DNA of 24,317 bases from a virus. Under the pieces are notes generated by a model that was given only the letters and a program-made list of their open reading frames with translations, ran no database searches and was not told the origin of the DNA. Position 1 is the stretch's first letter; each line of letters starts with the position of its first letter. The position numbers were made by a program, and so were the translations under genes. This document shows positions 1 through 15,083 of the stretch, in pieces. The stretch is from IMG/VR virus record IMGVR_UViG_3300037112_000050, positions 1 through 24,317 of that record. One strand, given 5' to 3'.

Positions 1-19
1 AGATAAAAGTTTCTCCGAC

Positions 20-55
20 CCCTCGGCTGTCACGCACAGCGGCCGAGGGCTTTTT
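20..55 (+). terminator. Intrinsic terminator upstream of first gene
   Basis: The arms CCCTCGGC (20-27) and GCCGAGGG (42-49) are perfect complements. A nested GCTGT/ACAGC stem sits inside the loop, and the structure is followed by C and five T (51-55). It should end transcription arriving from the left on the + strand. The first gene starts only about 17 bases downstream, which leaves no room for a separate promoter, so the downstream genes probably depend on read-through, antitermination or a promoter left of the window. Confidence 0.75.
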
Positions 56-71
56 ACGTGTGGAGGGTGAA

Positions 72-1817
72 GTGGCGAAGATGACGATATTGAAGGACGG
101 CCCTGGAACTACGGCAGACCGCAAGGCCAGGCTCCACGACGCGGTGGACCGGGCGTTCGATGCGAAGCGGGTGGGCGATGCCTCCATCAAGGCGCTATAT
201 TCTTCGGCTCATGCAAAAGACATTCTCAAAAGAGCGAAGCAACTTGGCTTCAGCGCCTCTTTGTCTGGCAACACCGTAACTGTCGGGGCATTTAGTGGGT
301 CTGGCCCGGAAGAGAATGAAGCCTGGAAGAAACTGAAAGTGTTGGCGAATGAAGGGTCTGTAGAGTACGGCTCTGCCAAGGATGCTGATTGGCGCACGTC
401 AACTACAGCGCCAAGCAAGATCATTCCAGGTGATTGCCCTGTTTGTCGCGGAACAGGTAAATCAAGTGTTCGCAATGACAAAGGGTTGCGCCCAGACTGC
501 GCCGTGTGTAAAGGCTCCGGACTTGCAAAAGCCACCGACCGCCGCACCAAGATGCACAAGGCGCTGGACGCAGTGATGGACGCAAAGCGGGTGGGGGACA
601 TGCGCGACTCAGATGAAGTAATGCGCATCAAAGAAGCGATTGAGCGTGTTCAACGCTCTTCTATAGGCAACGGCGATCCAGACGCTCGGGCTAAGATTTC
701 GCGCAAGCTGACCCAACTTGACCACGAGTTATCAGCAGCTTATGCACAGGCCACCGACCGCCGCACCAAGATGCACAAGGCGCTGGACGCGGTGATAGAC
801 TCAAAGCGCGTGTCAGACGCTGCTGACTTAGTACCTACGAAGAGCAATTCTTCTTACGGCACCTGGGCTGTTCGGGTAGATAACGCGAACATTAAGTTCT
901 TTTTCTCCAAGAAGGAAGCCGATAAGTTCTGCGTCGAGGAGAGGGCAAAGGCCACAGACGGCTTCCGCCCCCGCACCACGCCAGCCCCGAAGAAGGGCTA
1001 CGAGTCGTTCATGGACACCGTGAAGCGGCTCAAGGAGTCGAAGAAGGCTGAGGCGAAGGACGCCGACACCCATGCTTACGTCGGCCCTGCCAGTACCACC
1101 TACTGCGCTCAATGCGGCGAATCACGCGGACACGCGAATCACGGTGGAGTAGCGAAGGACGCATCGCGCATGCCGTATAAGTCTTGCGAAATTCGTTCAC
1201 TACCTAGCGGGCGGTTCTACGTTATACTGCCTGGAGGAAAAACCCAAACCGGATTTGCGTCTGAGCAGGCCGCGCTCAAATGGGTAGATCAGTACGAAGG
1301 GCACGCAGAAGACGCCGCGTCCTTCATAATCACGGCGACGGACAAGCCAACTGGTAAGAAGAAGCAGTTTCGTGTGCATGCTGCTACGGAGGCTGAAGCG
1401 CGGAAGAAGTTCGAGTTGCATTACAGTAACTCCTCCGTTGAGTCCGTAAAGGCGAAGGACTCCGAGGGCACGCTGAAGTTCATGGTGAGCCTGAAGAGCG
1501 GGCGTGCCGTAATCGAAGCTGACACCAAAGCTGAAGCTGCTAAGCTCGGGAAGAATCAGTATGGCGATTCCTTCGTAAGAGTGCTTGGGCTGATGAACGG
1601 AACTGGCCGTGACGCAAGCCCCTTCGACCGCGACACCGACGCCGGCAGTGCCCGCATTGTAAAGCGCGAAGCCGCTGCCGGCAAGACGGCCAAAGAGATA
1701 GTAGCCAAGTACGGCTTTTCGAAGTCGTTCGTTGACGAGGAGATGCCTTCCAAGGCGAAGGACGCTGCCCCGCACGCGTTTCAGCCTAAGGAAAGACGCC
1801 CTTGGTGTGGGGCGTGA
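72..1817 (+). CDS. Modular AKD/ATD-linked head-region protein 1
   Basis: I do not recognise the whole protein as a named family. It is a string of about ten small units separated by A-K-D or A-T-D tripeptides. In order, with rough residues: an N-terminal helical unit (ADRKARLHDAVDRAFDAKR); a small alpha/beta unit; a DnaJ-like double zinc knuckle CPVCRGTG...CAVCKGSG (about 122-150); two near-identical helical repeats beginning ATDRRTKMHKALDA (about 154 and 227); an alpha/beta unit; a Cys-His unit HAYVG...CAQCGE...H (about 334-360); three more alpha/beta units; a helical HTH-like unit; and the start of a second Cys-His unit. GTG at 72 is preferred because GGAGG ends 5 bases upstream; GTG 60 and ATG 81 are alternatives. 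The stop at 1815 probably reflects a frameshift (see 1809-1893). The position beside head genes suggests a virion or assembly role, which is inference. Confidence 0.8.
   Translation: MAKMTILKDGPGTTADRKARLHDAVDRAFDAKRVGDASIKALYSSAHAKDILKRAKQLGFSASLSGNTVTVGAFSGSGPEENEAWKKLKVLANEGSVEYGSAKDADWRTSTTAPSKIIPGDCPVCRGTGKSSVRNDKGLRPDCAVCKGSGLAKATDRRTKMHKALDAVMDAKRVGDMRDSDEVMRIKEAIERVQRSSIGNGDPDARAKISRKLTQLDHELSAAYAQATDRRTKMHKALDAVIDSKRVSDAADLVPTKSNSSYGTWAVRVDNANIKFFFSKKEADKFCVEERAKATDGFRPRTTPAPKKGYESFMDTVKRLKESKKAEAKDADTHAYVGPASTTYCAQCGESRGHANHGGVAKDASRMPYKSCEIRSLPSGRFYVILPGGKTQTGFASEQAALKWVDQYEGHAEDAASFIITATDKPTGKKKQFRVHAATEAEARKKFELHYSNSSVESVKAKDSEGTLKFMVSLKSGRAVIEADTKAEAAKLGKNQYGDSFVRVLGLMNGTGRDASPFDRDTDAGSARIVKREAAAGKTAKEIVAKYGFSKSFVDEEMPSKAKDAAPHAFQPKERRPWCGA
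531..593 (+). repeat. Direct repeat copy 1 (ATDRRTKMHKALDA unit)
   Basis: This 63-base stretch inside the first gene is nearly identical to 750-812. Both encode A-T-D-R-R-T-K-M-H-K-A-L-D-A-V followed by a similar D-[AS]-K-R-V. The third bases are almost all conserved too, which points to a recent duplication rather than old divergence. Confidence 0.9.
750..812 (+). repeat. Direct repeat copy 2 (ATDRRTKMHKALDA unit)
   Basis: This is the second copy of the 531-593 unit, with a handful of substitutions near its end (GATAGACTC against GATGGACGC). A more diverged copy starts the same protein (ADRKARLHDAVDRAFDAKR), and a cousin lies in the DUF2213 gene near 12535-12610 (DARRKAHDALDRALDAEDRK). Confidence 0.9.
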
Positions 1818-1893
1818 TCAGTGTGCTTTCTGTGGTGAACGGCGTGACGCTACGGTGCACACGCGCCGGGCGAAGGACGTAGAGCCCGTCTAG
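1809..1893 (+). other. Out-of-frame continuation of the first gene (frameshift)
   Basis: The first gene stops at 1815-1817, but the +1 frame continues open to TAG at 1891-1893 and encodes RDQCAFCGERRDATVHTRR followed by AKDVEPV. Joined at the GGGG run (1809-1812), the end reads HAFQPKERRPWCG-RDQCAFCGE...H...AKDVEPV. This matches the internal unit of the same protein, HAYVG...CAQCGESRGHANHGG followed by AKD. The second modular protein also ends in AKD-SREVQPV. The pattern fits a one-base insertion in the G run, through sequencing error, mutation or programmed slippage, rather than unrelated intergenic DNA. Confidence 0.65.
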
Positions 1894-1902
1894 GCAGGTC
1901 AC

Positions 1903-2778
1903 ATGGCCCCATCGAAGAAACCACCTGTAGAATTCAGCGCTACACAACGCCTCATGCGCTCTTACGAAGCTGGGCTCAGACAAATCACTGGCCGAGTTCT
2001 TCTGTCCACAAAGCAAACCAAAGAGCAAACCCTCCAGCAGTGGCTTACGACCATCGCTGACCGCTCGAACCAGCCTGACATCCAAGCGGCAAGCGACCTT
2101 CTAGCCAAGCGCATGATCTTCAGTTCACAAAAGACGAACTGGCGCTCTTGGCGGGAAGCCGCTTCAAGGTCGAGCCATGCCGGCAAGCTGTACAGCATGC
2201 TCCAGGCGGAGATGCAGGGTGCTACCGGCGCAAGGGTGCAGTCGCTCATCAGGGAGAACGCCTCGCTCATCTCAAGCCTGCCGCTGCACTCAGCGCAGAC
2301 GCTTGTAGACGAGATAACCAAGGCGCAGCAGGCTGGAGCCCGGCCAGGCACAATCGCGAAGATGTACCAGAAGCGGTTCCCTGAGTTGCTGCATAGCCGA
2401 GTCCAGCTTATCAGCAGGACAGAGACTGCAAAGGCTTCCACGGCGCTTACCAAGGCGCGGTGTGAGAACTTGGCGATCGAGTGGTATGAATGGCTGGACG
2501 TAGGGGACAAAAGAACTCGAAAGAGCCACAAGGCGATGCATCATGTCATTGTGCCTTGGTCGCAGCCACCATCACCAGAAGCGCTACTTGGTGAGAAGAC
2601 TACACTGGGGCACTATCACGCTGGTGAGTGCCCAAATTGCAGATGCGTAGTCGCGCCCATCCTTACCCTAGATGACATCGCCTTTCCGGCAAAGATCTAT
2701 TGGAACGGGTCTGTCAAGCAGATGACTAAACCACAATTCAGGCAGATTGCTGTAAGCCTCGAAGAACGAACCACGTAA
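1903..2778 (+). CDS. Head morphogenesis protein, Mu gpF / SPP1 gp7-like
   Basis: A minor head protein of the Mu gpF/SPP1 gp7 type, a low-copy virion protein associated with portal and capsid assembly. The first two thirds are helical and variable. The C-terminal part carries the family pattern: SRTETAKAS, then EWYEWLDVGDKRTRKSHKAMH (R-T-R-x-S-H core), then a G-E-C-P-N-C-R-C-VV-x-P segment near residues 240-252, which is the usual C-x-P end of the domain. Length 291 aa is within the range of the family. ATG at 1903 has a weak AGG upstream (GGCAGGTCAC). It lies before the portal gene, with four small genes between, whereas in many phages it follows the portal directly. Confidence 0.85.
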   Translation: MAPSKKPPVEFSATQRLMRSYEAGLRQITGRVLLSTKQTKEQTLQQWLTTIADRSNQPDIQAASDLLAKRMIFSSQKTNWRSWREAASRSSHAGKLYSMLQAEMQGATGARVQSLIRENASLISSLPLHSAQTLVDEITKAQQAGARPGTIAKMYQKRFPELLHSRVQLISRTETAKASTALTKARCENLAIEWYEWLDVGDKRTRKSHKAMHHVIVPWSQPPSPEALLGEKTTLGHYHAGECPNCRCVVAPILTLDDIAFPAKIYWNGSVKQMTKPQFRQIAVSLEERTT

Positions 2779-2796
2779 CTACAAAGTAGCTTCACA

Positions 2797-3078
2797 ATGA
2801 TCAACCTCGGACAGATCAACTTCGACGACGCCTCCACCGTTGGCCAGGCCCTCGTTCTGCGCACCACCAGCACTCTCAATGCCATCGGCACGCCAGCAAT
2901 CGGCCCGGCATTCAAGGTGTTCACTGTCGCTACATTGCCCGCCGCAGCTACCGCACTCAAAGGTGTAGTCGCGGCCGTCAGCGATGCAACCTCGCCTGCC
3001 ATCGGCGTTGCACTCACAAGCGGTGGCGCTGTGTTCTGCCTGGCGCTGTGCACAGGCGCTGCCTGGGTCGCGGTCTAA
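2797..3078 (+). CDS. Small hydrophobic structural-type protein
   Basis: Unrecognised 93 aa protein. After an N-terminal INLGQINFDDASTVGQALVL segment it has a pattern common at the ends of small phage structural or fibre proteins: KVFTVATLPAAATALKGVVA, then VSDAT, then a Gly-rich GGAVFCLALCTGAAWVAV ending. In that pattern the last part normally reads dG-x-W-x-V. This suggests a small beta-rich virion or decoration protein. No strong Shine-Dalgarno is visible before ATG 2797, so translation may be coupled to the upstream head gene, whose stop is 18 bases away. The reading frame and amino-acid composition support a real gene; function is inference. Confidence 0.6.
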   Translation: MINLGQINFDDASTVGQALVLRTTSTLNAIGTPAIGPAFKVFTVATLPAAATALKGVVAAVSDATSPAIGVALTSGGAVFCLALCTGAAWVAV

Positions 3079-3121
3079 CGACGTTGGCGCAGGCCTCCAG
3101 CTTAGGAAGCCGAGGGGACAC

Positions 3122-3439
3122 ATGACCTACCGCTTGCCGTACAAGGTCAGAGTAACCAAGACACGTAAGAGGGGCCTGCTTATGCCGCTGAGAATTCGTA
3201 GCAAGACCCTTCCTTCTGAACAGCGTCTGATAGAGCTTGCACCGGGCGACGCACTTGTGCACCGTGGCATGCTGATCGACAGTGAGATACTGGACGCCAT
3301 TCTGTCGACTGACAAGCGGCTTCTATGGGCCTTCGTGCGTGGCTCCGAGGGCGACGTGATGGCCATGCCATTTTCAGAAGAGCAATGCATCTGGATTTTA
3401 GAAAGCGACATTCTGCGTGAAGCTGACGTAGAGGTTTAA
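3122..3439 (+). CDS. Hypothetical small phage protein
   Basis: Unrecognised protein of 106 aa. The frame is open from 2984, but ATG 3122 is preferred because GAGGGG lies five bases upstream and the earlier start would overlap the preceding gene. The N-terminus is basic (YRLPYKVRVTKTRKRG), followed by an alpha/beta-looking body (PLRIRSKTLPSEQRLIELAPGD...) and an acidic end (ESDILREADVEV). ATG 3182 is a further internal candidate. No catalytic motif, signal peptide or membrane segment is visible. It lies in the cluster of small genes between the gpF-like protein and the portal. Confidence 0.65.
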   Translation: MTYRLPYKVRVTKTRKRGLLMPLRIRSKTLPSEQRLIELAPGDALVHRGMLIDSEILDAILSTDKRLLWAFVRGSEGDVMAMPFSEEQCIWILESDILREADVEV

Positions 3440-3575
3440 GTTTGCGGACGGGCGTGGAGCAGTAGGCGCTGACTGGCTCCACACCGTTCGTGATTCATTT
3501 CTGAGCCGCTCAGTGCGCGGCGGTTCGATGTACTAAATGAACAGAGCGCGTTTACTTACGTAGGGAGAATACACC
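3440..3575 (+). other. Structured intergenic leader, element A
   Basis: This non-coding gap holds two hairpins. The first pairs GTGGAGC-AGT (3454-3463) with ACTGGCTCCAC (3472-3482), about 10 bp with one bulge. The second pairs GCCGC (3505-3509) with GCGGC (3517-3521). The segment TGCGGACGGGCGT at 3443-3455 recurs exactly at 15182-15194 in the gap after the major capsid gene. Neither hairpin has a T run, so these are not simple intrinsic terminators. The next gene has a good GGGAG site. Confidence 0.5.
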
Positions 3576-4052
3576 ATGGCACCATTGACGTTCAGGAATT
3601 CAAAGATCATCTACTACGGCCCTCATCCGTGCGATAACTGCGGCATCGACGTCGCGAAAATGGGCAATGAGTGGGGTGGCACAGCATTTACCTATCCAAG
3701 TGGGCCGGTCTACCCAAACACCGAGTGGCATCCGCATGTATGTGACCCGTTCGAAGTTCGGAACAAACTGGGGCGCGAAGCCAAAGACCGGCAGCTAGCG
3801 AAGTGGCCTGACGCAGCACCACTGCAAGTCAACGGGATGTTCGTCATTGTTGCGTACGCCAATAAAGCTGATTCATTCCCCACCGTTATCTCGCACAACT
3901 GCTCATTCTATGACACTGAGCTTTCGGCCTGGGCCGGTGCTGATGAGCGTGATCAGCGAGGCAATCCCACGTGGCGTATGCACCGAGCCACTGGTGAGAC
4001 GTGTGATACATACATGCACAATGCTGCTGTCGACGCCCAACGAAAGAAGTAG
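3576..4052 (+). CDS. Hypothetical protein with CxxC motif
   Basis: Unrecognised 158 aa protein. A CDNC pair near residue 19 (PHPCDNCGIDVAKMG), the HPHVCDPF segment and C-S-F-Y / ETCDTY later could form a small metal site, but spacing does not match a family I can name. It has no signal peptide or membrane segment. ATG 3576 has GTAGGGAGAAT upstream with good spacing, so it has its own ribosome site after the structured gap. The composition (many W, H, D and N) looks like a soluble enzyme-like or binding protein; function unknown. Confidence 0.75.
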   Translation: MAPLTFRNSKIIYYGPHPCDNCGIDVAKMGNEWGGTAFTYPSGPVYPNTEWHPHVCDPFEVRNKLGREAKDRQLAKWPDAAPLQVNGMFVIVAYANKADSFPTVISHNCSFYDTELSAWAGADERDQRGNPTWRMHRATGETCDTYMHNAAVDAQRKK

Positions 4053-4146
4053 TCTGCTAAAGATTCAGGGATAGGAGGCATCCGACAAACCAGTTTTCTC
4101 CGACTGGCTTCCCTGATTGGTTAACCGGAGCGTGGGAGAACACGAT

Positions 4147-4404
4147 ATGGCAGTGAAGATGAGGGCGGCAAAGGTTGTCAAGCCTGTGGAAGCGCTCAAA
4201 GCCGGGCCTAAACGTCGTTTTGAACGAAAAGATGAACGGGCTAAGTTAAGCGCCGCACACACTAAGAAATGGCAAGACCCGGACTATAAAGCTAGGCAAG
4301 CGGCGGCGCACACGCTAGGTGTATACGCACAAGCAGCAGAATCCAACAGATTAACCGCGCAGCGTAAGCGCCAAGAAAAGGAGAAGAATGCCCAAGCCGC
4401 GTAA
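4147..4404 (+). CDS. Small basic protein with NUMOD/HTH-like motif
   Basis: Very basic 85 aa protein (KPVEALKAGPKRRFERKDER, then many K and R). The central S-A-A-H-T-K-K-W-Q-D-P-D-Y-K-A segment resembles the 'S..hk..W.dPe' type of DNA-binding motif seen next to homing nucleases (NUMOD-like), but no nuclease domain is attached. ATG 4147 is chosen over the earlier TTG 4117 because GGGAG lies about eight bases upstream. Its end overlaps the portal start by 17 bases, implying translational coupling. A nucleic-acid-binding role is inference; the rest is unknown. Confidence 0.65.
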   Translation: MAVKMRAAKVVKPVEALKAGPKRRFERKDERAKLSAAHTKKWQDPDYKARQAAAHTLGVYAQAAESNRLTAQRKRQEKEKNAQAA

Positions 4405-7006
4405 ACGTAAAAATCCTAACGCGCTTGAGCAGAATCTCGGTGTGCGGGGTTTGACGGCAGGCTCAGCCGTCGCGAATGACATGTTCTCGAACTTTGCAGC
4501 CCGTTCCGGATTTGGAACTCAATCTCTAGGGCAAGGTTCGGAATACACCCTGGTTAGGTTCTCCTACGATTTTTGGGCCATCATAACTCTCTATCGCAAT
4601 CATTGGCTGAGCCGCCGCATCATAGATGTGCCCGCCCAAGATTACGTGAAAGCGTGGCCTAAGCTCACAAGTGAGATCGAGCCCAAGGACCTGACTCGCA
4701 TTGACCGAGCGCTGCGCAAGACGAACACAAAAAACAACGTCCTTACTGGTTTGACCTGGGGGCGGTTGTTCGGCGGAGCGGGCGGGCTGATAGTCATAGA
4801 CGGCCAGGAGAATGAGCTCGATCAGCCGTTGGACTTAGAGTCAGTAAAAATCGGGGCTTACAAAGGCATTCTGCCGTTCGATATGTGGAGCGGAATTCAC
4901 CCAGCAGGGGATGTGTGTACAGATATCAACCGCCCTCTTGACTTCGGCAGGCCAGAAAACTACACGGTCACGCCTACTGGTGGGGCCTCATTCAAAGTAC
5001 ATTCATCACGCGTACTGAGGTTCACAGGACCCTCTGTACCTACACCTGAGAAGGAAGCCCAGATGCAGTGGGGCATTTCAGTGTTGGAACCGATCTACGA
5101 GTCCATCACGCGCCTAGACAACATGTACGCAAATCTGCTTAACCTCTCGTTCAGAGCAAATCTGATCGGCATGAAATTTCCCGACCTTGCCCAACTTCTC
5201 TCGGGCCTCGGTTCGTCACAGGTGGCCTCACAGAAGTTTGAGCAGCGCATGTCGTCGCTTAATTCGCTTATGAGTAACCAGAGCCTCATCCCGTTGCCGG
5301 CGGATGGCGGCATAGAGCAGACCCAGTACAGTTTCAGCGGCATGAGCGATGTACTTCAGTTGTTCCAGCTAGACATTGCAGGCGCGGCGCAGATCCCAAT
5401 CACGCGCCTATTTGGCCGGACCTACAATGGACTTGGTCAGGCTGGCGACGGCGACGAGATGATCTACTCCGAACGCATCGCAACCGACCAGTCGGTCTAC
5501 CTCACACCTCAGTTGGAAAAACTTTACCCCGTGCTTTGTATGAGTGAATTAGGAGAGGTACCAGACGATCTAGATTTGGTCTGCCCCTCCATCAGAGTCC
5601 TTGACGAAAAAGAGAAATCTGAGCTAGCGAAATCCGTAGCAGATACCGTGACGGTTTACTTGAATAGCGGAATTATGAGTCCGCGCGTCGTAGCTAGAGA
5701 GGTCAAGCAGTCCAGTGACATGACCGGCATCGGCACGAACCTCACAGACGAGTTCATCGCGAAGCTGTCTGACTCCGTAGCCTCAGAAGGCGAGCTCGGC
5801 GAGGGCCTCTTCGGAGGCGAGGGCGCGGGGCTTGGTGAGGCCGACTCCCCTGCCAAGGCCATTAAGAGCGAAAACAAGACGGGCCAGGGCGAAGACCCCG
5901 AGGACCCGGCTGCAAAGAATGACGAGCCATCCGCCAAAGAACTGCTAGCCAAGAAGGCTGGCAAGCCCAGCAAGACAGCGCCTGCAATGGACACCCTCCC
6001 CGCCGGACTCAAGCGCGGTGAAAAGATCCTTGTAGGTGGCAAACTGCTGACAGTCGCCTCCATCGGCGATGCGGTAGAGGACCTGGACGGAGAAACTGCC
6101 GTCCCCGTTCGCTTTGTGGATGGGACTGTGGTGGCTTACGCAAGAGTACAGGATGCGCTACCCAGGGACCTGATCTACGGCCCGTTCACCGATAAGGTGG
6201 AAGCTGAGCATTGGCTGAAGAAAGTGCGCACTAGCAAGCAGTACGACATGACACGGGTTTCCCGTTGGGGTACAGTGCCAACACGTGAGCAAGAAGCTCG
6301 CGGTATGTACATTGGCGACGTACGGTTGTCAGTTGGTTGGGGCGTGTTCGGAGAAAAGAAGACCAAGGCCACCGACTCCATCCCCACGTTCGAGAAGTGT
6401 GGCAATCCAGTTTGGCGCATCTGTACAAAGTGCTCTGGCCATCTGCACCGCTCTGAGTGCAAAGTTACGCTGGATAGAGTGCGTGACTGCGTATGCTCAG
6501 CTGGTCTGGAGCATGGATCCAGCACGTACGAGGTCCTGCATGGCCACGCCACGGACGCCGACGGCGCTTCGGCCGCGAACGGAGCCACGGAGTCCATACG
6601 GGAGACCCACGGACTGCGCACACGCGTCGAGACGCCGGTTGGAAGGCTGCGTTCAGGCTTCACACCGGACGGTCGAGCCTGGTCGGTCACAATGCCGGCT
6701 CATTATGGCTTCATCGATGGCATTCTGGGTGCTGACGGTGATAGTCTTGACTGCTACATCGGTACAGACCCGGAGTCAGCTACGGTGTGGGTCGTTGATC
6801 AGCATGACATCGACGGCACAGGGTTCGATGAGCATAAGGTATTTCTTTCGTTCGCAAACCAGGCTGAAGCACTAGAAACTTATATGCTTGGTCATCATCT
6901 GTCCCGCAAGACCTACGCCGCCATCACGGAATTCACCATGGCGGCATTCAAGAAGTGGATGGCTAACCATGACATGGCTGAGCCCTGCGACCCTGGTGTA
7001 GAGTAG
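4388..7006 (+). CDS. DUF1073 portal protein with pyrophosphatase-like C-terminus
   Basis: Forms the portal ring through which DNA is packaged and ejected. Residues about 25-470 follow the DUF1073 portal pattern (FSYDFWAIITLYRNHWLSRRIIDVPAQD, then ITRLFGRTYNGLGQAGDGDE). After an Ala/Lys/Glu-rich linker come a small beta unit (about 535-590), an alpha/beta unit, an ATD linker, a Cys/His cluster (about 671-702, CTKC...HRSEC...CVC), a second ATDAD linker, and a domain at about 745-865 resembling the inorganic-pyrophosphatase-like (InPase) domain of phage polyvalent proteins: TPVGRLRSGF, GADGDSLDCYIG near 780 (close to the D-x-D-x-x-D metal signature), VWVVDQHDIDG, DEHKVF near 814. At 872 aa it is well over the size of a plain portal. 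GGAG sits just before ATG 4388, inside the previous gene. Confidence 0.85.
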   Translation: MPKPRKRKNPNALEQNLGVRGLTAGSAVANDMFSNFAARSGFGTQSLGQGSEYTLVRFSYDFWAIITLYRNHWLSRRIIDVPAQDYVKAWPKLTSEIEPKDLTRIDRALRKTNTKNNVLTGLTWGRLFGGAGGLIVIDGQENELDQPLDLESVKIGAYKGILPFDMWSGIHPAGDVCTDINRPLDFGRPENYTVTPTGGASFKVHSSRVLRFTGPSVPTPEKEAQMQWGISVLEPIYESITRLDNMYANLLNLSFRANLIGMKFPDLAQLLSGLGSSQVASQKFEQRMSSLNSLMSNQSLIPLPADGGIEQTQYSFSGMSDVLQLFQLDIAGAAQIPITRLFGRTYNGLGQAGDGDEMIYSERIATDQSVYLTPQLEKLYPVLCMSELGEVPDDLDLVCPSIRVLDEKEKSELAKSVADTVTVYLNSGIMSPRVVAREVKQSSDMTGIGTNLTDEFIAKLSDSVASEGELGEGLFGGEGAGLGEADSPAKAIKSENKTGQGEDPEDPAAKNDEPSAKELLAKKAGKPSKTAPAMDTLPAGLKRGEKILVGGKLLTVASIGDAVEDLDGETAVPVRFVDGTVVAYARVQDALPRDLIYGPFTDKVEAEHWLKKVRTSKQYDMTRVSRWGTVPTREQEARGMYIGDVRLSVGWGVFGEKKTKATDSIPTFEKCGNPVWRICTKCSGHLHRSECKVTLDRVRDCVCSAGLEHGSSTYEVLHGHATDADGASAANGATESIRETHGLRTRVETPVGRLRSGFTPDGRAWSVTMPAHYGFIDGILGADGDSLDCYIGTDPESATVWVVDQHDIDGTGFDEHKVFLSFANQAEALETYMLGHHLSRKTYAAITEFTMAAFKKWMANHDMAEPCDPGVE

Positions 7007-7049
7007 CACCACCGCCAACGAACTGCCCACAGAGAACGGACCCCTACAA

Positions 7050-7373
7050 ATGGCCCAAGAGAACTACGACCATCAGCCTATGGACCTGACCGAGTTGATC
7101 CGCACCGTACGCGGCCATGACCGTGATCTGTACAAGGGCAACGGAAAAGCCGCGTTGTTTGTGAGGGTCACCGAGCTAGAAACATATCGGGAACGCACAG
7201 AGGCTAATCTGTATGACCCTGAGACCGGAGCCATACCGAAGCTGAAAGATTTCTTCGCTGTGCTAGTAGAACGTGAGCGGCGGGCCTCTACCACCACAAA
7301 GGTCTATGTCGCCCTTGTGGCCGTCATACCGATTATGTATGACGTGCTCAGCCACTATGCCGGGTGGAGGTGA
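7050..7373 (+). CDS. C-terminally anchored membrane protein, holin/XhlA-like
   Basis: The 107 aa protein has a soluble, charged, probably helical N-terminal part (LTELIRTVRGHDRDLYKG... VTELETYRERTEAN) and one hydrophobic segment close to the C-terminus (about residues 80-102, TTKVYVALVAVIPIMYDVLS). This layout resembles XhlA-type lysis accessory proteins and some small holins, but no family signature is decisive. Its stop TGA (7371-7373) overlaps the ATG of the next gene, so the two are probably translated together. Membrane location is strongly suggested; a lysis role is inference. Confidence 0.65.
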   Translation: MAQENYDHQPMDLTELIRTVRGHDRDLYKGNGKAALFVRVTELETYRERTEANLYDPETGAIPKLKDFFAVLVERERRASTTTKVYVALVAVIPIMYDVLSHYAGWR

Positions 7374-8176
7374 TGAAGCGGGTAACGCAGAGCCGTGTCG
7401 GTGAAGATGGTACATGCTTTAGAGCAGCACTGGCGTCCATCTTAGAAATTCCAGAGGCGGACGTGCCAGACTTCCCAGACGCCAATCACGACCCTGGGGT
7501 GAACAAGTTCCTTCGCAAGCACGGCCTGCGCTACACACGTCGTCCCATCGACTCGGCGAAGCCGTCAGGGTGGCACGTAATAGAAGGCATCTCTCCGCGC
7601 GGTGGAATGCACGCCGTTGTCGGTCATGATGGTGTGTTCAAGCACGATCCGCATCCTCAAGACGGAACGGGCCGGGGATTGGTCGAGCCGATGTTCTGGG
7701 GCGCGCTGGAGAAGGTCGGCAGAGCAAAGGACGCACACGGCACCCGCCCCGGCGACGTCAAGCATGGCAAGGGAGCGTTCACCATCCAAGTTACTGAGAA
7801 GGACGGCCGTGAGCATGTCGAGCCGGTGGGCGTGCTGAGGGCTTATGACGCCCAAGCTGATGAAGATGCGAAGATTGTTACACATGCATTTAAGACCGGC
7901 GGAAAATCGGCGGCTGTATCAAAGGTGCGAGAATTGACAGACGGCCAACCAGCGTGGGTGGCGCGCGCACTATTTGAGAAAGCACTTTACCTTATGATTC
8001 CAGGTGATACACGTGAGGCAAGATTGGCCCGCAATGAAGCAGTGCGCACGGGTGACTCCACCCTAGACATCATCGCCATTCTGGCCGGTATCTATGCGTG
8101 GTACATTGCGCACAAAGAGCCTGAGGTTCAGAGTTACAACTTGGCGAAGTACGTGCCTAAGAGGCGTGTCTTTTGA
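7373..8176 (+). CDS. Papain/C39-like cysteine peptidase with extended C-terminus
   Basis: The first ~110 residues match a phage papain-fold family: VTQSRVGEDGTCFRAALASI with candidate nucleophile C15, VPDFPD, then GISPRGGMHAVVGHDG with H80, and KHDPHPQDGTG with D92. The Cys-His-Asp order fits a peptidase or amidase. An AKDAHGTRP linker (about 120) separates it from a second half of unknown function that ends with a hydrophobic segment (about 231-248, LDIIAILAGIYAWYIAH) and a basic tail. ATG 7373 overlaps the previous stop; the GTG 7364 alternative adds three residues. The substrate cannot be told: it could be peptidoglycan, a head protein or a host protein. Confidence 0.75.
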   Translation: MKRVTQSRVGEDGTCFRAALASILEIPEADVPDFPDANHDPGVNKFLRKHGLRYTRRPIDSAKPSGWHVIEGISPRGGMHAVVGHDGVFKHDPHPQDGTGRGLVEPMFWGALEKVGRAKDAHGTRPGDVKHGKGAFTIQVTEKDGREHVEPVGVLRAYDAQADEDAKIVTHAFKTGGKSAAVSKVRELTDGQPAWVARALFEKALYLMIPGDTREARLARNEAVRTGDSTLDIIAILAGIYAWYIAHKEPEVQSYNLAKYVPKRRVF

Positions 8177-8409
8177 ACCGTAAACCCGAAGAAACTCGCA
8201 CATCCGGAATCCAGCGGTTCAGTGCACCGCCAGGTTGGAAGACCAAACCGTGCTCGGCCGTGCCGCACATTATGGGAAAGTGTTTCTCGCTGAAGTGCAC
8301 ATGCACCTGTCATAATGCAATACCGGGTTTGAAACAAGAAGCTTGGCAAGGAAGTAAAGCAAGCAAGGAGCACCAATGGCAAACATTCAAGAAGCATCGT
8401 TCGCAGTAG
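8173..8409 (+). CDS. Small Cys/His-rich protein
   Basis: A 78 aa frame begins at TTG 8173, overlapping the previous stop, with AAGAGG eight bases upstream. It contains PCSAVPHIMGKCFSLKC followed by TCTCH, a C...H...C...C-x-C-x-CH cluster typical of tiny phage zinc proteins. Its end overlaps the start of the next gene by 34 bases. The start codon is weak and the protein is short, so this is a probable rather than certain gene. No function can be assigned. Confidence 0.5.
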   Translation: MNRKPEETRTSGIQRFSAPPGWKTKPCSAVPHIMGKCFSLKCTCTCHNAIPGLKQEAWQGSKASKEHQWQTFKKHRSQ

Positions 8410-8690
8410 ACGCGGCCCAGGGCACATCCTTTGGGTTCGCCTCTACCGCCGTCCTTCTGCCCGGCACCCCGGCGAGCGACTCTATCGTACGTGTCGCAAA
8501 TCTTGGTCCCTGCCACATCAGCGTCAAGCTGGGCACGTCCAACGCCGTGACGGTGACAAACTCCACGGGCGTCGTCATCCTGGCTGGGCAGGTGCTCTAT
8601 CTCACGCTCGGCGCGAACACCTACATCGCGGGTGTGTCTGCTGGTGGGCCTGGCTCCGGCTCCACGTGCAACCTGGCGACGGGGAACTAA
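8376..8690 (+). CDS. Small beta-rich structural protein, possible decoration
   Basis: A 104 aa protein rich in V, T, G and S, with the pattern R-V-A-N-L-G-P-C-H-I-S-V-K-L-G-T followed by GVVILAGQVLYLTLGANTYIAG. I know this layout from small uncharacterised phage virion proteins with a beta-sandwich appearance. AAGGAG sits six bases before ATG 8376. It has no signal peptide. A head-decoration or fibre-accessory role is inferred only from composition and location; it could equally be a non-structural small protein. Confidence 0.7.
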   Translation: MANIQEASFAVDAAQGTSFGFASTAVLLPGTPASDSIVRVANLGPCHISVKLGTSNAVTVTNSTGVVILAGQVLYLTLGANTYIAGVSAGGPGSGSTCNLATGN

Positions 8691-8694
8691 CATT

Positions 8695-9291
8695 CTGAAC
8701 TCTTGTAACTGCACCAAGCCACCCAAGGGATGGTACTGCCCACGCCCCTACATGCACGAAGGCCCTTGTGCGACGCGACCGACCTTGTTCACGCGGCTAA
8801 AGTGGCTGGTGGGCTTCACTGTGGTCTTGGTTATCTGCACCACGCAAGGCACAGCGCAGACGGCGAAGTACCGGATGCACGGCCCTGGGGTGCTGAACGA
8901 CCTAAAGGCCACGCCCGGTGCAGTCAGCACTCGCACTGCGGCGCAACTCTGCGCTAAGACCTTTCGCACTGGGCCTATTCGCCTTGTAACAGAAGCCACA
9001 AAGCACGCGGCATGTGCAGAGTATGGCATCGACAAGGCCGGGTGCGTAGGCGCAAAGCTGGAAATCGACCATTTGATTTCTTTGGAGCTCGGTGGTACCA
9101 ACGACCTCACGAACCTGTGGCCCGAGCCGTACCTGCCAAAGCCCGGAGCGCGTGAGAAGGACCAAGTAGAAGATACGTTGCATCGCCAGGTTTGCTCTGG
9201 TACTGTTTCACTAGCGACTGCTCAGCACGAGATCAGCACGGACTGGTACGCTGTGTACCTCACAATCCAGTCGGGTTCGGCCAAGAAGTAA
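8695..9291 (+). CDS. HNH-like nuclease with signal/anchor segment
   Basis: The C-terminal half matches a family of HNH-like nucleases: LEIDHLISLELGGTND, NLWPEPY, then EKDQVEDTLHRQVCSG; the core D-H pair is at about residues 125-126. Before it, RLKWLVGFTVVLVICTTQGTAQTA looks like a signal peptide or membrane anchor with an A-x-A-like site. The N-terminus holds a Cys unit CNC...GWYCPRPYMHEGPCATRP, also known from small phage proteins. The start is uncertain: that Cys unit begins upstream of ATG 8752, leaving CTG 8695, ATT 8692 or GTG 8632 (overlapping the previous gene by 59 bases). If 8752 were used, the signal peptide would be N-terminal and the Cys unit truncated. Confidence 0.7.
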   Translation: MNSCNCTKPPKGWYCPRPYMHEGPCATRPTLFTRLKWLVGFTVVLVICTTQGTAQTAKYRMHGPGVLNDLKATPGAVSTRTAAQLCAKTFRTGPIRLVTEATKHAACAEYGIDKAGCVGAKLEIDHLISLELGGTNDLTNLWPEPYLPKPGAREKDQVEDTLHRQVCSGTVSLATAQHEISTDWYAVYLTIQSGSAKK

Positions 9292-9365
9292 GACAGCCGC
9301 CACGCGTCACAGATTCACCTGCACTACCACCTAACTACAGCCGCCACGCGGCACAGGAGATTGAA

Positions 9366-11486
9366 ATGAAGACGCTCAAGAAGCTGCGCCGCGCGTATGA
9401 CGAAATCCAGCCTGTAGGTTCAGAAGACCCCGAGCGCGACGCCGCGTTGGCGGCACACGAGTCCGGCGAGACCGAGGCGCAGGACCGGCGGAAGGCGAAG
9501 GACGTAAGCAGCAGGTCTGACCCTTGGCTTGCTATGGTGAAGAGGCAGTACAACGACAAAATTTACACGTCGGTGCGAAACACCTTCAAGGCTAGTGGCA
9601 AAGAGGCTGCGGCCAACTATTTGCAAAAGTTTACAACCCGCAAAGTGGAAGGCGCGACAGCTCAGCCACCAACGCGCGGTGAGGACGTCCTCCCCGTCCC
9701 CATCAAGACCTCCAACGCCGTGCCCATGCCGACCGAGAATGACGGCGCGCAGCGGTACGCCACGGACAGGTGGCGCGGCAAGGACAAGATGCCGCCGATG
9801 AGGGCAAAGGACACAGACCCGCGAAAGCCTCTTTACGTTCAAGGTGAATGGAAGGTCATGCCCACTCATGACCCTGATAAAGTACAGGTACTGCGCGGAA
9901 CGCAGTTGGTGAACGAGGTAGAAGACTTGGAAGCGGCGAAACGGTTCATTGCAGGAAAAGCAAAGACCGCCGACGCCGAACTCAAGAATACTTCTACGCA
10001 AGATATTAAGATGGAGATTCTCGCACTCGAAGATAAAGAAAAATTATCTAATGTCCAAGCGGCCAGGTTGAAAATGCTAAAAGATGAACTTTCAAATCGG
10101 CGCGGCACAGACCACGTGCGGCCGGTTGGAGACGCCAATGCGGCCTCGGATCCACATTTGGCTGAAGTGAAAAAGACCTGGAACGACAAGATCTACAAGA
10201 AATATCTGTCCATCTACAATATGGACGGCAAGGAGGCGGCTACGAAATACTTGCAGCAATTCACAACGAAGAAGCTGGGGGACCACAAGCGCGCCACCGA
10301 CGCCAAGATCGTAGAGCAGCGCGGCGGCAGCGAACCCGCTGACCACCTCTACCGCGCTTCTGTGTACGAGGTGCAGGGCGACCGCGCCCGCGCCCTCGAC
10401 AGCTACCGCATGGCAGCGAGCGGGTTCCGCAAGTCTGCTGCGTTCGCCAAGACCACGGACGAGGCAGGCACGGCGAAGGACGGACTCAGCAAGGCAACGG
10501 ACGGAGTCGCCGCGTGTCAGAGCCGCTTCGCTTCGCAGTACCAGCATCCTGGAACGGGCCGCGTGAAGGTGTGCGACTCGGCCTCGACGGCGCTGCGCAC
10601 GGCGGTCGAGCGCACTCGGGCGGGTGAGGTTGTGTCGGTAATCGGCAAGACGGTGAGGCCCGGACGTGCTAGGGTGTGCGACTCTAGAGAAGGCGTCTGG
10701 ATGTGCTCAGAGTGTAAGACGGGGCATACTTCTGAGACCGAGTTGCATAAACACCAAGAAAAAACTGGTCACTGGCGAACACCTACTGGAAATCCTTTGA
10801 CCAAGGAAGAAGCCGGGCACAGTCAGTGGCAGGCCAAGGACGGCGCGTTCGCCAAGCTCGAGGGCAAGCTCGAAAAAGAGGGCGAGTCGAAGCGGAAGGC
10901 GTCGGGGACGGATCTTGTAAACGCTCATACGTGGAGTGTGAGTGACCTGAATTCAACTCTGGCAGAATTGCAGCGCGCACTGAAAGATGCGCGTACGCCT
11001 GGAAAACCACAGTACGGCGGCAATACGCGACAAATAGAAGAAGACATCGCTGACGCGAAGCGTGCTCTAGCAAGTAAGTCCAGTGCTAAAGACGGCGCGT
11101 TCGCCAAGCTAGAGGGCAAGCTCGAAAAAGAGGGCGAGTCGAAGCAGGAAGCAGGCGGTGTCGCGTACGAGGCAGGCGCGGCAAAGTACGGTAAGGCCGG
11201 CATGGCGGCGAAGTCTGCGGCGGCGAGGGACGACGACACAGAAGAACTTGCGCAGCGCATTAAGTCGCTTGTAAAAGAACTTAAAGCTGATGGCACTACA
11301 AACATGTCTACGCGCAATCTAAAGCAACTTGTGAACACAAGAGGCCTTAGATTCACAAATCAAAACCACTTTGAACGTGCATTTTCAGAAGCACTTGCGA
11401 AGGCTGGTGTAGCCAAGTTCGTAGCCATGGCCGAGGAGGCTGGGAGGACGAAGGCCAAAGACAGTAGGGAGGTCCAACCCGTATGA
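9366..11486 (+). CDS. Modular AKD/ATD-linked head-region protein 2
   Basis: A 706 aa string of small units separated by AKD, ATD or similar tripeptides. ATG 9366 is chosen because AGGAG lies eight bases upstream; the frame is open further back. Units in order: charged N-terminus; a YNDKIY...GKEAA..YLQ.FTT unit (from about 9516) repeated near 10146 as WNDKIY...GKEAATKYLQQFTT; a YVQGEWKVMPTHDPDKVQVL alpha/beta unit; a helical unit; a TPR-like helical unit (ADHLYRASVYEVQGDRARAL); a classic C2H2 zinc finger C447-x2-C450-x12-H463-x5-H469; two copies of DGAFAKLEGKLEKEGESK; an AAKYGKAGMAAKSAA segment; and a final helical unit. It ends AKDSREVQPV. It overlaps the DUF2213 gene by four bases. Function unknown; a virion or assembly role is inferred from context. 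Confidence 0.8.
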   Translation: MKTLKKLRRAYDEIQPVGSEDPERDAALAAHESGETEAQDRRKAKDVSSRSDPWLAMVKRQYNDKIYTSVRNTFKASGKEAAANYLQKFTTRKVEGATAQPPTRGEDVLPVPIKTSNAVPMPTENDGAQRYATDRWRGKDKMPPMRAKDTDPRKPLYVQGEWKVMPTHDPDKVQVLRGTQLVNEVEDLEAAKRFIAGKAKTADAELKNTSTQDIKMEILALEDKEKLSNVQAARLKMLKDELSNRRGTDHVRPVGDANAASDPHLAEVKKTWNDKIYKKYLSIYNMDGKEAATKYLQQFTTKKLGDHKRATDAKIVEQRGGSEPADHLYRASVYEVQGDRARALDSYRMAASGFRKSAAFAKTTDEAGTAKDGLSKATDGVAACQSRFASQYQHPGTGRVKVCDSASTALRTAVERTRAGEVVSVIGKTVRPGRARVCDSREGVWMCSECKTGHTSETELHKHQEKTGHWRTPTGNPLTKEEAGHSQWQAKDGAFAKLEGKLEKEGESKRKASGTDLVNAHTWSVSDLNSTLAELQRALKDARTPGKPQYGGNTRQIEEDIADAKRALASKSSAKDGAFAKLEGKLEKEGESKQEAGGVAYEAGAAKYGKAGMAAKSAAARDDDTEELAQRIKSLVKELKADGTTNMSTRNLKQLVNTRGLRFTNQNHFERAFSEALAKAGVAKFVAMAEEAGRTKAKDSREVQPV
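10833..10892 (+). repeat. Direct repeat copy 1 (AKDGAFAKLEGKLEKEGESK)
   Basis: This 60-base segment is repeated at 11085-11144 with three third-position differences and encodes the same 20 residues, A-K-D-G to E-S-K. Each copy begins exactly at an A-K-D tripeptide. Between the copies lies an inserted helical unit, so the layout looks like a module inserted between, or flanked by, duplicated units. Confidence 0.9.
11085..11144 (+). repeat. Direct repeat copy 2 (AKDGAFAKLEGKLEKEGESK)
   Basis: Second copy of 10833-10892. The differences are confined to synonymous third bases (GCC/GCT, AAG/AAA, CTC/CTA). Downstream, only this copy is followed by the AGGVAYEAGAAKYGKAGMAA segment that in other phages usually follows the KLE-unit, so this is likely the complete unit and copy 1 a truncated duplicate. 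Confidence 0.9.
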
Positions 11487-13213
11487 CTGAGGAAATGGAA
11501 GAACTAGAAGTGCTTCCCGCCACTAAGTCTCCACACGGCTACCTCACTAGCCCTCTGACTGATAACATCCACATGACTGACGAGGGCTACCTCGTCATCG
11601 TGGGGTGCCCCGTCGCACGAACGGGCTGGCAGAAATACGCCGTAAAAAATTTGCCCCAGGCGCGTGCAAAAGAGTTAGGCATAGACACCTCGAATCCTGA
11701 GGCATCTATCGATCTATACAGGCCCGCAAAAGAGGTGTTCCACCCGGAGTTTCTTGCAAGTCTCAACGGAAAGCCGATTTGTGACTCTCACCCTCCGAAT
11801 GGTGAATTTGTAGACCCGAAAAACTTCAAAAAGCTTACATGTGGACACCTACAAAATGTACGCAAGGGCCTAGAACCATTGGATGATGGAGAGTGGCCGA
11901 TCATAGCCGACCTGGTCATCAGCGACCATCAGCTGATTGAGAAGGTAAAAAATAAGACGGCTCGAGATAACAGTCTTGGCTATGACTTCTCTATCGACCG
12001 CGACGGCGACAAGATAATCCAGTGCTCAATGTCTGGCAATCATGACGCAATAGTCACTGCCGGACGCGCTGGAGATCTTGTGTCCATTCAAGATGCCGCG
12101 CCTGAAGACCCTGCCTTCCTTGCGACCAAGGCCGCGGAAGCCAAACCAAGTTTACCAATCCCTGCGCTGGTGGAAGTCATCGAAACCAAAGCGTACACCC
12201 CAATCGTACTTCCACCCATACCAACGAAGGAGAAGCAAACCGTGGCCGATCAAAAGCCGAAGAAGGACTGGCTTCGCATCTTCAAAGGAAAGCATCTCAT
12301 TGAGATGGCGCGAGCCACCGATGCTGATCCCGAGTCCGTGATGGACGCAGCTGAGTCGCTGCAAGAAGACGTCGAAGACAAGCGTGGCGCGAAGGACGGA
12401 GAACTGCCCGAAGCGCTGAAGGAAAACGAGTTCAAGGCCAAGGACAAGCGCCGCACTAAGGACCGTAAGTCCAAGGATGCGGAGGAACTTAACGAGGCCA
12501 AGGACGAAGAGGAAGAGGAAGAGGAAATGAGCGACGCACGTCGTAAGGCGCATGACGCCCTCGACCGCGCGCTTGATGCCGAGGACCGCAAGGCGCACGC
12601 CAAGGACGCCGACATCGAAGAGCTCAAGAACCTGCTGGATGAGTTCCTCGACGAAGAAGAGAAAGAGCCCGAGCACGCAAATGACGCGGAAGAGGCTGAC
12701 CCCTCGGACCTCGAAGCTGTCTTGGGTGCTGAGGACGCTGAGGAGTGCCCCGACTGCGGCGAACCCGTGGACGACTGCAGCTGCCCATCGGCCAAAGACT
12801 CTGAATCTGACCCCGGCGAAGAGGAAGTCGAGAGCGGCGAGGAAGAAGTCGAAGACGACGAAGAGGACGATGACGATGACGAGGCTGACGTCGAGGACAA
12901 GAAGAAGGCCAAGGCGAAGGACCGTGCCCGCGCAGCTGATGGCGCGAATGCTGTACTGCGCATGCTGCGGCCCATCGTAGCCCGCACCAATGACAAAGCC
13001 GTACAGGGTGCCTTCAACCGCGCACTGGACTCGGTCAAGAAGTCCAGCCGTGTCTCCACTGGAAGCTACGGAGCGTTCGCCGGTTCGGCGCGTGCTCGTG
13101 ATAAGGCTCCTCGCAACCCCAACCCAGATCGTGTCCGAGCCACTGACGGCCAGGCTGATCCCATCGCCAAGATGCAGGCAGCTTATAACGCTGCATTCAA
13201 GGGAGGCAAGTAA
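11483..13213 (+). CDS. DUF2213 protein with acidic scaffold-like tail
   Basis: The N-terminal ~220 residues follow the DUF2213 pattern (GYLTSPLTDNIHMTDEGYLVI, PKEVFHPEFLASLNGKPICDSHP, DLVISDHQLIEKVKN). This family sits where phages usually keep the prohead protease, but I cannot point to catalytic residues. From about 265 on, the protein is highly charged, with many AKD/ATD tripeptides, a helical unit DARRKAHDALDRALDAEDRK (about 352) like that of the first gene, a knuckle CPDCGEPVDDCSC (about 422-434), and a run of Glu/Asp. This looks like a scaffold joined to a protease-like domain. ATG 11483 overlaps the previous stop; GGGAGG lies about ten bases upstream. The gene directly precedes cement and capsid genes, as expected. 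Confidence 0.8.
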   Translation: MTEEMEELEVLPATKSPHGYLTSPLTDNIHMTDEGYLVIVGCPVARTGWQKYAVKNLPQARAKELGIDTSNPEASIDLYRPAKEVFHPEFLASLNGKPICDSHPPNGEFVDPKNFKKLTCGHLQNVRKGLEPLDDGEWPIIADLVISDHQLIEKVKNKTARDNSLGYDFSIDRDGDKIIQCSMSGNHDAIVTAGRAGDLVSIQDAAPEDPAFLATKAAEAKPSLPIPALVEVIETKAYTPIVLPPIPTKEKQTVADQKPKKDWLRIFKGKHLIEMARATDADPESVMDAAESLQEDVEDKRGAKDGELPEALKENEFKAKDKRRTKDRKSKDAEELNEAKDEEEEEEEMSDARRKAHDALDRALDAEDRKAHAKDADIEELKNLLDEFLDEEEKEPEHANDAEEADPSDLEAVLGAEDAEECPDCGEPVDDCSCPSAKDSESDPGEEEVESGEEEVEDDEEDDDDDEADVEDKKKAKAKDRARAADGANAVLRMLRPIVARTNDKAVQGAFNRALDSVKKSSRVSTGSYGAFAGSARARDKAPRNPNPDRVRATDGQADPIAKMQAAYNAAFKGGK

Positions 13214-14036: not shown

Positions 14037-15083
14037 ATGAAGCGTACTATTCCGAATCGTTCGCGGGCATTTGACGCGGCGGGCGCGTCCGGTCTGGCTT
14101 TTCTTCAAAGCCAGCTGGAGATCATCGACACGGACCTCGTCCGTCCTTTGCAGGCTGTCACGCACAAGCGCGACATCGCTGTTGAAGTAGGTGGTGGCTT
14201 CCCCGAGTTTATCTCGGCGTTTGCCTCCAACTACGCCTCCACTGGAACCGCATCCTACGGGTTGCAGGGCACCAACAACACGGAGATCCCCGAGGCACAG
14301 GCGGACATCCAGAAGGGCATATGGCGTACGTACAACTGGGCGATGGGTATGACCATCACCTGGATCGACCTGCGGCGCATGGAGACTGCACTTCGCACTG
14401 GCCAGGCACCTCCGTTCAGCTTGCAAGAGCTGTACGAGGAGTCTGTCGAGACCACCTGGGGCAAGGCGCTGGACTTCGTAGTCTACGCCGGGTTCCTCGG
14501 TGATCCGGGCTTGATCAACAACCCGAACATCTACGAGTCCGTTGCACCGGCTGGCGCGTCGACGTTCACCACGTGGGCGAAGAAGACCCCGCAGGAGATT
14601 CTTGCGGACATCAACTTCGCGCTCAACCAGACCGTCGAGAACTCTGGCTACTCGGCTGAAGAGGGCATGGCAGATCGCCTTCTGATTCCGTACACCCAGT
14701 TCGCTACTCTCACGCAGCCCATCGCAATCGGTGGCGCGCCTGTGGCGGTGTCGACGATCGAGTACATTGAGAAGCAGTGCGTTGCTGCGCATCACGGCAT
14801 CGACTTCAAGATCAACTTCCTCCCCAACCCATGGATCAGCGGAACCGGCAGCGGCAACACTGTGGCTCCTGGCAGTCCTACGGGCGGGAACGGACTTGAT
14901 CGCGCGTTCTTCTACAAGAACTCGAAGAAGAGCGTGTACTTGAAGGTCCCACAGCCGATGATCCCGGCCCTCACGGTTCCTACGACCCGCGCAGGCGGAG
15001 CGTATGAGACCATGTACGCTGGCTGCCTGAGCCAGGTCATCTACAAGCGGACCACGACTGCCTACTACCTCGACGGCGTCTAG
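14037..15083 (+). CDS. Major capsid protein, DUF2184 family
   Basis: The shell-forming coat protein, recognised by the DUF2184 pattern: FLQSQLEIIDTDLVRPLQAV near the N-terminus, EVGGGFPEFISAFASNYAS, GIWRTYNWAMGMTITWIDLR, LLIPYTQFATL and a C-terminal YLKVPQPMIPALTVPTTRAGG segment. At 348 aa it is a typical length. Codon use is strongly biased towards G/C-ending codons, as expected for the most abundant virion protein. AAGGGAG precedes ATG 14037. It has no AKD/ATD tripeptides, unlike the preceding genes. The family is thought to adopt the HK97 fold; there is no sign of an N-terminal scaffold domain. Confidence 0.85.
   Translation: MKRTIPNRSRAFDAAGASGLAFLQSQLEIIDTDLVRPLQAVTHKRDIAVEVGGGFPEFISAFASNYASTGTASYGLQGTNNTEIPEAQADIQKGIWRTYNWAMGMTITWIDLRRMETALRTGQAPPFSLQELYEESVETTWGKALDFVVYAGFLGDPGLINNPNIYESVAPAGASTFTTWAKKTPQEILADINFALNQTVENSGYSAEEGMADRLLIPYTQFATLTQPIAIGGAPVAVSTIEYIEKQCVAAHHGIDFKINFLPNPWISGTGSGNTVAPGSPTGGNGLDRAFFYKNSKKSVYLKVPQPMIPALTVPTTRAGGAYETMYAGCLSQVIYKRTTTAYYLDGV

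Follow-up and report, generated by a model that had tools for sequence, protein, structure and literature searches.

The internal proteins IPI-III of phage T4 are brought to the prohead core by a targeting sequence, packaged, and trimmed by the head protease. Proteases of the type represented by T4 gp21 cleave head proteins after P3-x-Glu, and the SPN3US enzyme gp245, whose cuts follow A-x-E, also processes its own C-terminus and acts at multiple sites within long propeptides (PMC5694885, PMC10052503). The protease Pro of phage P1 likewise removes the N-terminus of DarA (PMC12810830). Polyvalent proteins are multi-domain phage proteins whose domains are rapidly shuffled; they include a fusion of inorganic pyrophosphatase (InPase) to the portal in BcepF1, and their injection was proposed and release by peptidases suggested (Iyer et al. 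2017, PMC5512222). We consider here a 24.3-kb viral record (IMG/VR record IMGVR_UViG_3300037112_000050, 24,317 nucleotides; hereafter the window) that carries head and tail genes of a contractile-tailed phage, where the tripeptides A-K-D and A-T-D (A[KT]D) recur in several head-region proteins, including a DUF2213 protein. These tripeptides are very probably the recognition sequence of the phage's DUF2213 head maturation protease, a gp21-type enzyme with Asp at P1.

The DUF2213 protein shares with T4 gp21, phiKZ gp175 and SPN3US gp245 a common fold and a C-terminal region that is self-processing in the described enzymes. As in those systems, several head proteins would be cut at a P3-x-acid consensus, at multiple sites (PMC5694885, PMC10052503), a prediction made here from sequence. 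The described enzymes cut after Glu (SPN3US after A-x-E), whereas the DUF2213 code specifies Asp, has a P3 residue that varies between clades, and is repeated in the scaffold-like tail of the protease. The substrates differ as well: T4 IPI-III and P1 DarA lose one N-terminal piece, while the many sites in the proteins of the window predict many small pieces. InPase on the portal and shuffled modules are features common to this phage and the polyvalent proteins, for which release was attributed to peptidase domains embedded in them; in this phage a head protease encoded by its own gene would act, at a short and explicit cleavage code. The protease class, its fold and the trimming of internal proteins are thus already known; what appears to be new is a code that is specific for Asp, written in the protease tail and variable between clades, together with its role as punctuation in shuffled cargo polyproteins. 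An earlier note on this DNA, made from the letters alone, knew of no description of the pattern, and a full-text literature search, with subscription literature outside it, returned none of such a code. A paper that mentions DUF2213 gives a growth phenotype and no cleavage motif.

The motif and the DUF2213 protein

The recurrence of the motif in five proteins, which the earlier note had put at about 30 copies, is borne out by 31 A[KT]D sites against about 4 expected from composition shuffles. Enrichment is evident in the modular proteins modA (10 against 1.0) and modB (9 against 1.1), in DUF2213 (8 against 1.0) and in the portal (3 against 0.6, p=0.012); the fifth protein, a peptidase-like open reading frame (ORF), carries one copy against 0.3 and is not significant alone. 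Two of the portal sites are in the tail of that protein, as had been claimed (6368-6376 and 6548-6556), but the third, RIATD at 5480-5488, falls inside the portal domain. The tail genes of the window (sheath, tube and tape measure) have no A[KT]D; the capsid protein, which had also been listed as free of the motif, lacks AKD and ATD but carries the broader A-x-D at its N-terminus. Two isolated copies occur in other genes (3780-3788 and 13699-13707). Since the 31 sites are written with 15 different 9-base codon strings, selection acts on the amino acids, as the earlier note had suggested, and a single DNA repeat is ruled out as the origin of the motif.

The same restricted distribution is found in a comparison set of 446 ORFs called on 11 related contigs, three of them at least 100 kb. 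Significant enrichment lies almost entirely in DUF2213, modB, modA-type proteins and one portal homologue, and all remaining proteins together have 110 copies against 86 expected. An unbiased profile taken at every Asp of the motif-rich proteins yields (R/K)-A-(K/T)-D, with z scores of 8.8 for R and 4.5 for K at P4, 11.8 for A at P3, and 5.1 for K and 3.2 for T at P2. The profile around Glu of these proteins shows nothing comparable, which rules out a Glu-based motif.

The DUF2213 gene (11483..13213; all features located here are on the + strand) matches PF09979 (1.1e-30) and phrog_530, a family annotated as a head maturation protease in PHROGs and as uncharacterised in Pfam. The model of its N-terminal domain (pLDDT, the predicted local distance difference test score, 79) assigns the stretch at 11573..12094 to the T4 gp21/herpesvirus assemblin fold. 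Among candidates supplied by Foldseek, VIA-align places the T4 prohead protease gp21 (5jbl) first, with Z 13.2 and a root-mean-square deviation of 3.1 over 142 residues, followed by herpesvirus proteases at Z 5.0-5.6. Three residues that are invariant in 17/17 diverse DUF2213 proteins are candidate catalytic residues: His103 (11789-11791), Ser164 (11972-11974) and His187 (12041-12043). The remainder of the protein is an acidic, scaffold-like tail (12095..13210) with 8 A[KT]D and at least 16 A-x-D, candidate sites of self-cleavage. The gene order, portal followed further on by DUF2213, a small ORF and capsid, is the same in the window and its relatives.

Capsid N-termini and the P3 letter in relatives

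The major capsid protein (14037..15083; PF09950, 7e-34) begins with a predicted 13-residue propeptide (14037..14075) that ends in RAFD|AAG. Almost every close relative retains A-x-D at this position (one has GFD), the length upstream of it varies, and Asp13 is invariant in 16/16 diverse capsid proteins. An AlphaFold2 model of the capsid protein had a pLDDT of 31 and was excluded from the evidence.

DUF2213 phages with solved capsids provide a structural check, neither structure having been used to derive the rule. In Pbunavirus PB1, ORF21 is a DUF2213 protein (5.5e-29) whose tail favours A-x-D, and the 382-residue capsid protein contains exactly one A-x-D, SGSAMD64|S65. The capsid cryo-electron microscopy (cryo-EM) models of E217 and Pa193 begin at residue 66 (PMC10329688, PMC11042391), so that in Pbunavirus the density begins one residue after the predicted new N-terminus (S65 predicted, 66 seen). 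The first 93 residues of the Pa193 portal were undetected by liquid chromatography-mass spectrometry (PMC11042391), and the PB1 portal carries VAMD76|SAY. Pa193 gp24, labelled a putative scaffold, is seen in the head only as residues 286-326 (PMC11042391), a segment that falls between two A-x-D sites of the homologous PB1 protein; gene position and a common EMSGE sequence lead us to infer that PB1 ORF21 is its counterpart. In Vibrio phage XM1, the DUF2213 protein is gp52 (1.8e-12); it contains 11 F-x-D where 1.7 would be expected, and a matching F28-K-D30 stands in the capsid protein. Residues 1-30 of that protein are missing in cryo-EM and cleavage was suggested by the authors, who left the scaffold unidentified and named gp46 as a possible protease (PMC10457771). 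The predicted cut thus lies exactly at the start of the ordered capsid residues. Pbunavirus (PB1, E217 and Pa193) and XM1 resemble the window phage in having DUF2213 upstream of the capsid gene and a capsid N-terminus missing at the predicted site, and PB1 also has the portal-InPase fusion; they differ in that, within the excerpts available, their authors assigned no DUF2213 protease or motif. By our reading, XM1 gp52 (L248, 4268-5725) and PB1 ORF21 (L245, 5672-7069) are probable DUF2213 protease-scaffolds.

In the DUF2213 tails of related phages and prophages, P3-x-D typically recurs as punctuation, and the letter at P3 is specific to the clade: A, T or F, with R in S-CBS4. In the T clade (48 non-redundant tails), the residue at P3 before Asp is T 402 times against 93.6 expected (z 31.8) and G occupies P2 208 times against 83.5 (z 13.6), with no enrichment comparable to that at Asp before Glu. 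A single DUF2213 alignment spanning all clades was too divergent for a locus search. Across 72 non-redundant DUF2213/capsid gene pairs, the agreement between the P3 letter of the capsid and the letter enriched in the tail scores 3.60, against a maximum of 3.01 in 5000 permutations. Many T-clade capsid proteins start with leaders ending in RARTRD, or with TFD, and in BgManors32 an RARTRDG leader also precedes the protease domain. The tail of Pam3 DUF2213 has no clear P3 preference and was counted neither as support nor as refutation.

Several observations weigh against this assignment. The permutation test is blind to shared ancestry, so the P3 match rests on few independent switches (A, T and F; R in S-CBS4), and few independent clades effectively carry it. 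The small-capsid relatives RHph_I65, Vibrio D93 and Pam3 show little or no tail signal, and Gekk3-15 has an A-x-D tail, yet GAD at the aligned capsid position. The conservation of Asp13 may be partly structural, because the residue is invariant even where almost nothing stands before it (MLTFD). The first residue ordered in cryo-EM is not necessarily the mature N-terminus, and the E217 authors explain the absent capsid N-terminus by cleavage or disorder (PMC10329688). DUF2213 is too divergent from gp21 for plain Foldseek, which gives no significant match of the protease model in the PDB. Finally, the protein-level data come from relatives, none of them from this phage. Against these points stand the enrichment, the gene specificity, the fold, the partial covariation, the exchange of modules at the sites and the two cryo-EM capsid N-termini, all of which support a cleavage code.

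Leaders of a common N-terminal type occur on different head proteins of a single phage, on the protease and capsid of BgManors32 (L033, 6799 and 8842) and on a small protein and the capsid of Edwardsiella phage ZHS (L076, 3647 and 4309), in each case ending in RARTRD/RARTQD. Judged by their sequences, such shared leaders are what would be expected of common propeptides.

Modules, exchange and putative cargo

The gene for modA (3..1817) runs off the 5' end of the window and has only weak Pfam matches. Its ten A[KT]D sites (213, 375, 531, 750, 951, 1053, 1152, 1335, 1452 and 1755) flank small modules of DnaJ-like and other Cys-rich, helix-turn-helix (HTH)-like and short alpha/beta types. The second modular protein, modB (9369..11486), has nine sites and a conserved C-terminus, AKD|SREVQPV. 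In the portal (4388..7006), Phage_portal_3 at residues 64-422 is followed by a C-terminal tail with ATD sites and the InPase domain (Pfam 9e-90 and 1.4e-35); InPase, at 6548..6961 and directly 3' of GHATD|ADG, is predicted to be a released cargo module. The Pfam assignment of InPase is clear; for the modA and modB modules the family matches are weak, and their effector-like character is putative. With tblastn, modA and modB find no match in 50,697 phage records, so the modules are untraceable outside close relatives.

Alignments show that modB proteins of near-identical relatives differ by whole segments that start and end at AKD, ATD or AAD. Among the closest relatives, 9/13 block ends lie at most 2 residues from a site (3.9 expected, p=0.005); in a wider set of 110 block ends, 72 lie at most 4 residues away against 52.5 at random, a weaker seam signal, partly because the pairs are not independent. 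Modules move among modA, modB and the portal with the motif at both ends. For example, the GFRP...KKGYESFMDTVKRLKE module, flanked on either side by AKD or ATD, belongs to modA in the window and to modB in G009. InPase forms the portal C-terminus in the window, G002, G003 and G004 and is part of a separate protein in G007, and it is preceded by ATD everywhere (RATD/GRATD in G003/G004, RATD in G007) except in G002, which has RSFD. The window modA stops soon after SKAKD|AAP (1755-1817), where the near-identical G001 modA goes on with another module (VEPVGDAEG...); either module loss or a frameshift at the last site could account for the shorter end.

We suggest that the DUF2213 protease, encoded just upstream of the capsid gene, recognises (R/K)-A-(K/T)-D and would cleave behind its Asp. 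As the prohead matures, the enzyme would break its acidic scaffold tail down into small peptides and remove 13 residues from the capsid protein; it would also detach InPase from the portal and divide modA and modB into pieces of roughly 10-160 residues, to be kept in the head as cargo. The cut sites would double as exchange seams: since every module has one short sequence in common at its borders, modules could drop out, be acquired or change genes without impairing their release. Among DUF2213 clades the P3 letter varies, and the tail of the protease itself shows which one applies. That cleavage occurs in this phage, and that the pieces are retained and injected, we infer. A more complete picture has in our estimate an even chance of being right: inside the capsid, DUF2213 would dice cargo polyproteins into dozens of small modules, among them zinc-binding, HTH-like and pyrophosphatase ones, to be delivered to the host; every cut site would be an exchange boundary; and protease, scaffold tail and capsid would drift by clade along with the code (P3 being A, T or F).

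A second short element may be involved in loading. A helix-like stretch, R(R/K)xxxH(D/K/R)AL(D)(R/A)xxD, is present in most relatives, both in the tail of DUF2213 and in proteins of the modA/modB type; in the window it occurs as RRKAHDALDRALDAEDRKAH in the DUF2213 tail (12545..12604, ends approximate), a candidate prohead-core targeting element, and in modA at about 120-180, 540-600 and 759-819. Among the 446 proteins the HDALDR-type helix has 23 matches against 0.05 expected, none outside DUF2213 and modA/modB-type proteins. By analogy with the targeting sequence of the T4 internal proteins, it could take cargo along with the scaffold to the prohead core.

The earlier note had proposed both cleavage sites for a head protease and seams of module exchange, and the two are compatible, since a module with cut sites at its borders is self-contained. 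The cleavage proposal is well supported by the gp21 fold, the code in the protease's own tail, the capsid N-terminus and the cryo-EM starts of two relatives; the seam proposal likewise holds, given that near-identical relatives switch modules at the motif and that modules carry it at their ends when they move between genes. Improbable, in our judgement, is a motif that is a seam and nothing else, a short flexible linker kept for homologous or illegitimate recombination without proteolysis. The 9/13 breakpoints close to sites and the travel of motif-bounded modules among modA, modB and the portal are what such a linker would produce, but 15 codon strings for 31 sites leave little DNA homology for recombination, the same type of code is found in scaffold tails of relatives where no modular cargo protein was seen, and it marks capsid N-termini, where no exchange occurs.

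If R-A-K-D instead bound the capsid interior or scaffold, like the cargo peptides of encapsulins, and loaded proteins uncut, enrichment only in proteins expected inside the prohead would follow and many repeats per chain would give avidity. We think this very improbable: the motif sits at module borders and in the capsid protein's own N-arm, it agrees with the missing capsid N-termini of relatives, it resembles the P3-x-E sites of gp21-fold proteases, and the HDALDR helix is the better docking candidate. An artefact of low-complexity sequence is barely credible. The proteins are rich in Ala, Lys and Asp, and modA and modB each contain an internal duplication; composition shuffles nevertheless yield about one site per protein, which rules out a pure composition effect, the order of residues matters (A-x-D rather than A-x-E, with a basic P4), homologues at 50-70% identity retain the pattern, and other proteins of the same contigs are not enriched.

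Recognition by the DUF2213 protease gives a widespread family a concrete rule, P3-x-D, in which the tail reveals P3, and it identifies the probable protease-scaffold of XM1, E217 and Pa193, whose structures were solved with none assigned. Mature N-termini and released cargo would be predictable from sequence alone. The rule offers a possible mechanism for the release of domains from polyvalent head proteins and a reason why modules are easily shuffled, each carrying its own cut sites, and it is readily testable in existing phages such as PB1/E217.

Neighbouring genes and C-terminal peptides

The window encodes, in order, modA, a MuF-like protein, the portal with InPase, the peptidase-like ORF, an HNH-like ORF, modB, DUF2213, a small protein, the capsid protein, connectors, sheath, tube and tape measure; the connector, sheath, tube and tape-measure names are a reading of the ORFs by eye. 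The peptidase-like ORF (7364..8176) is named from a Cys/His pattern, also read by eye; residues 6-105 match phrog_5845, of unknown function, and its single AKD (7724-7732) lies just past this conserved domain. An ORF with an HNH-nuclease-like stretch, LEIDHLISLELGGTNDLTNLWPEPY, lies among the head genes at 8632-9291, directly before modB. Several putative cargo proteins, in the window (11454-11483) and among the modB/modA-type proteins of relatives, end in a short conserved peptide after the last AKD-like site, namely SREVQPV, AREVQPV, KREVQPV, SREVLPV, VAPV or VVQPV.

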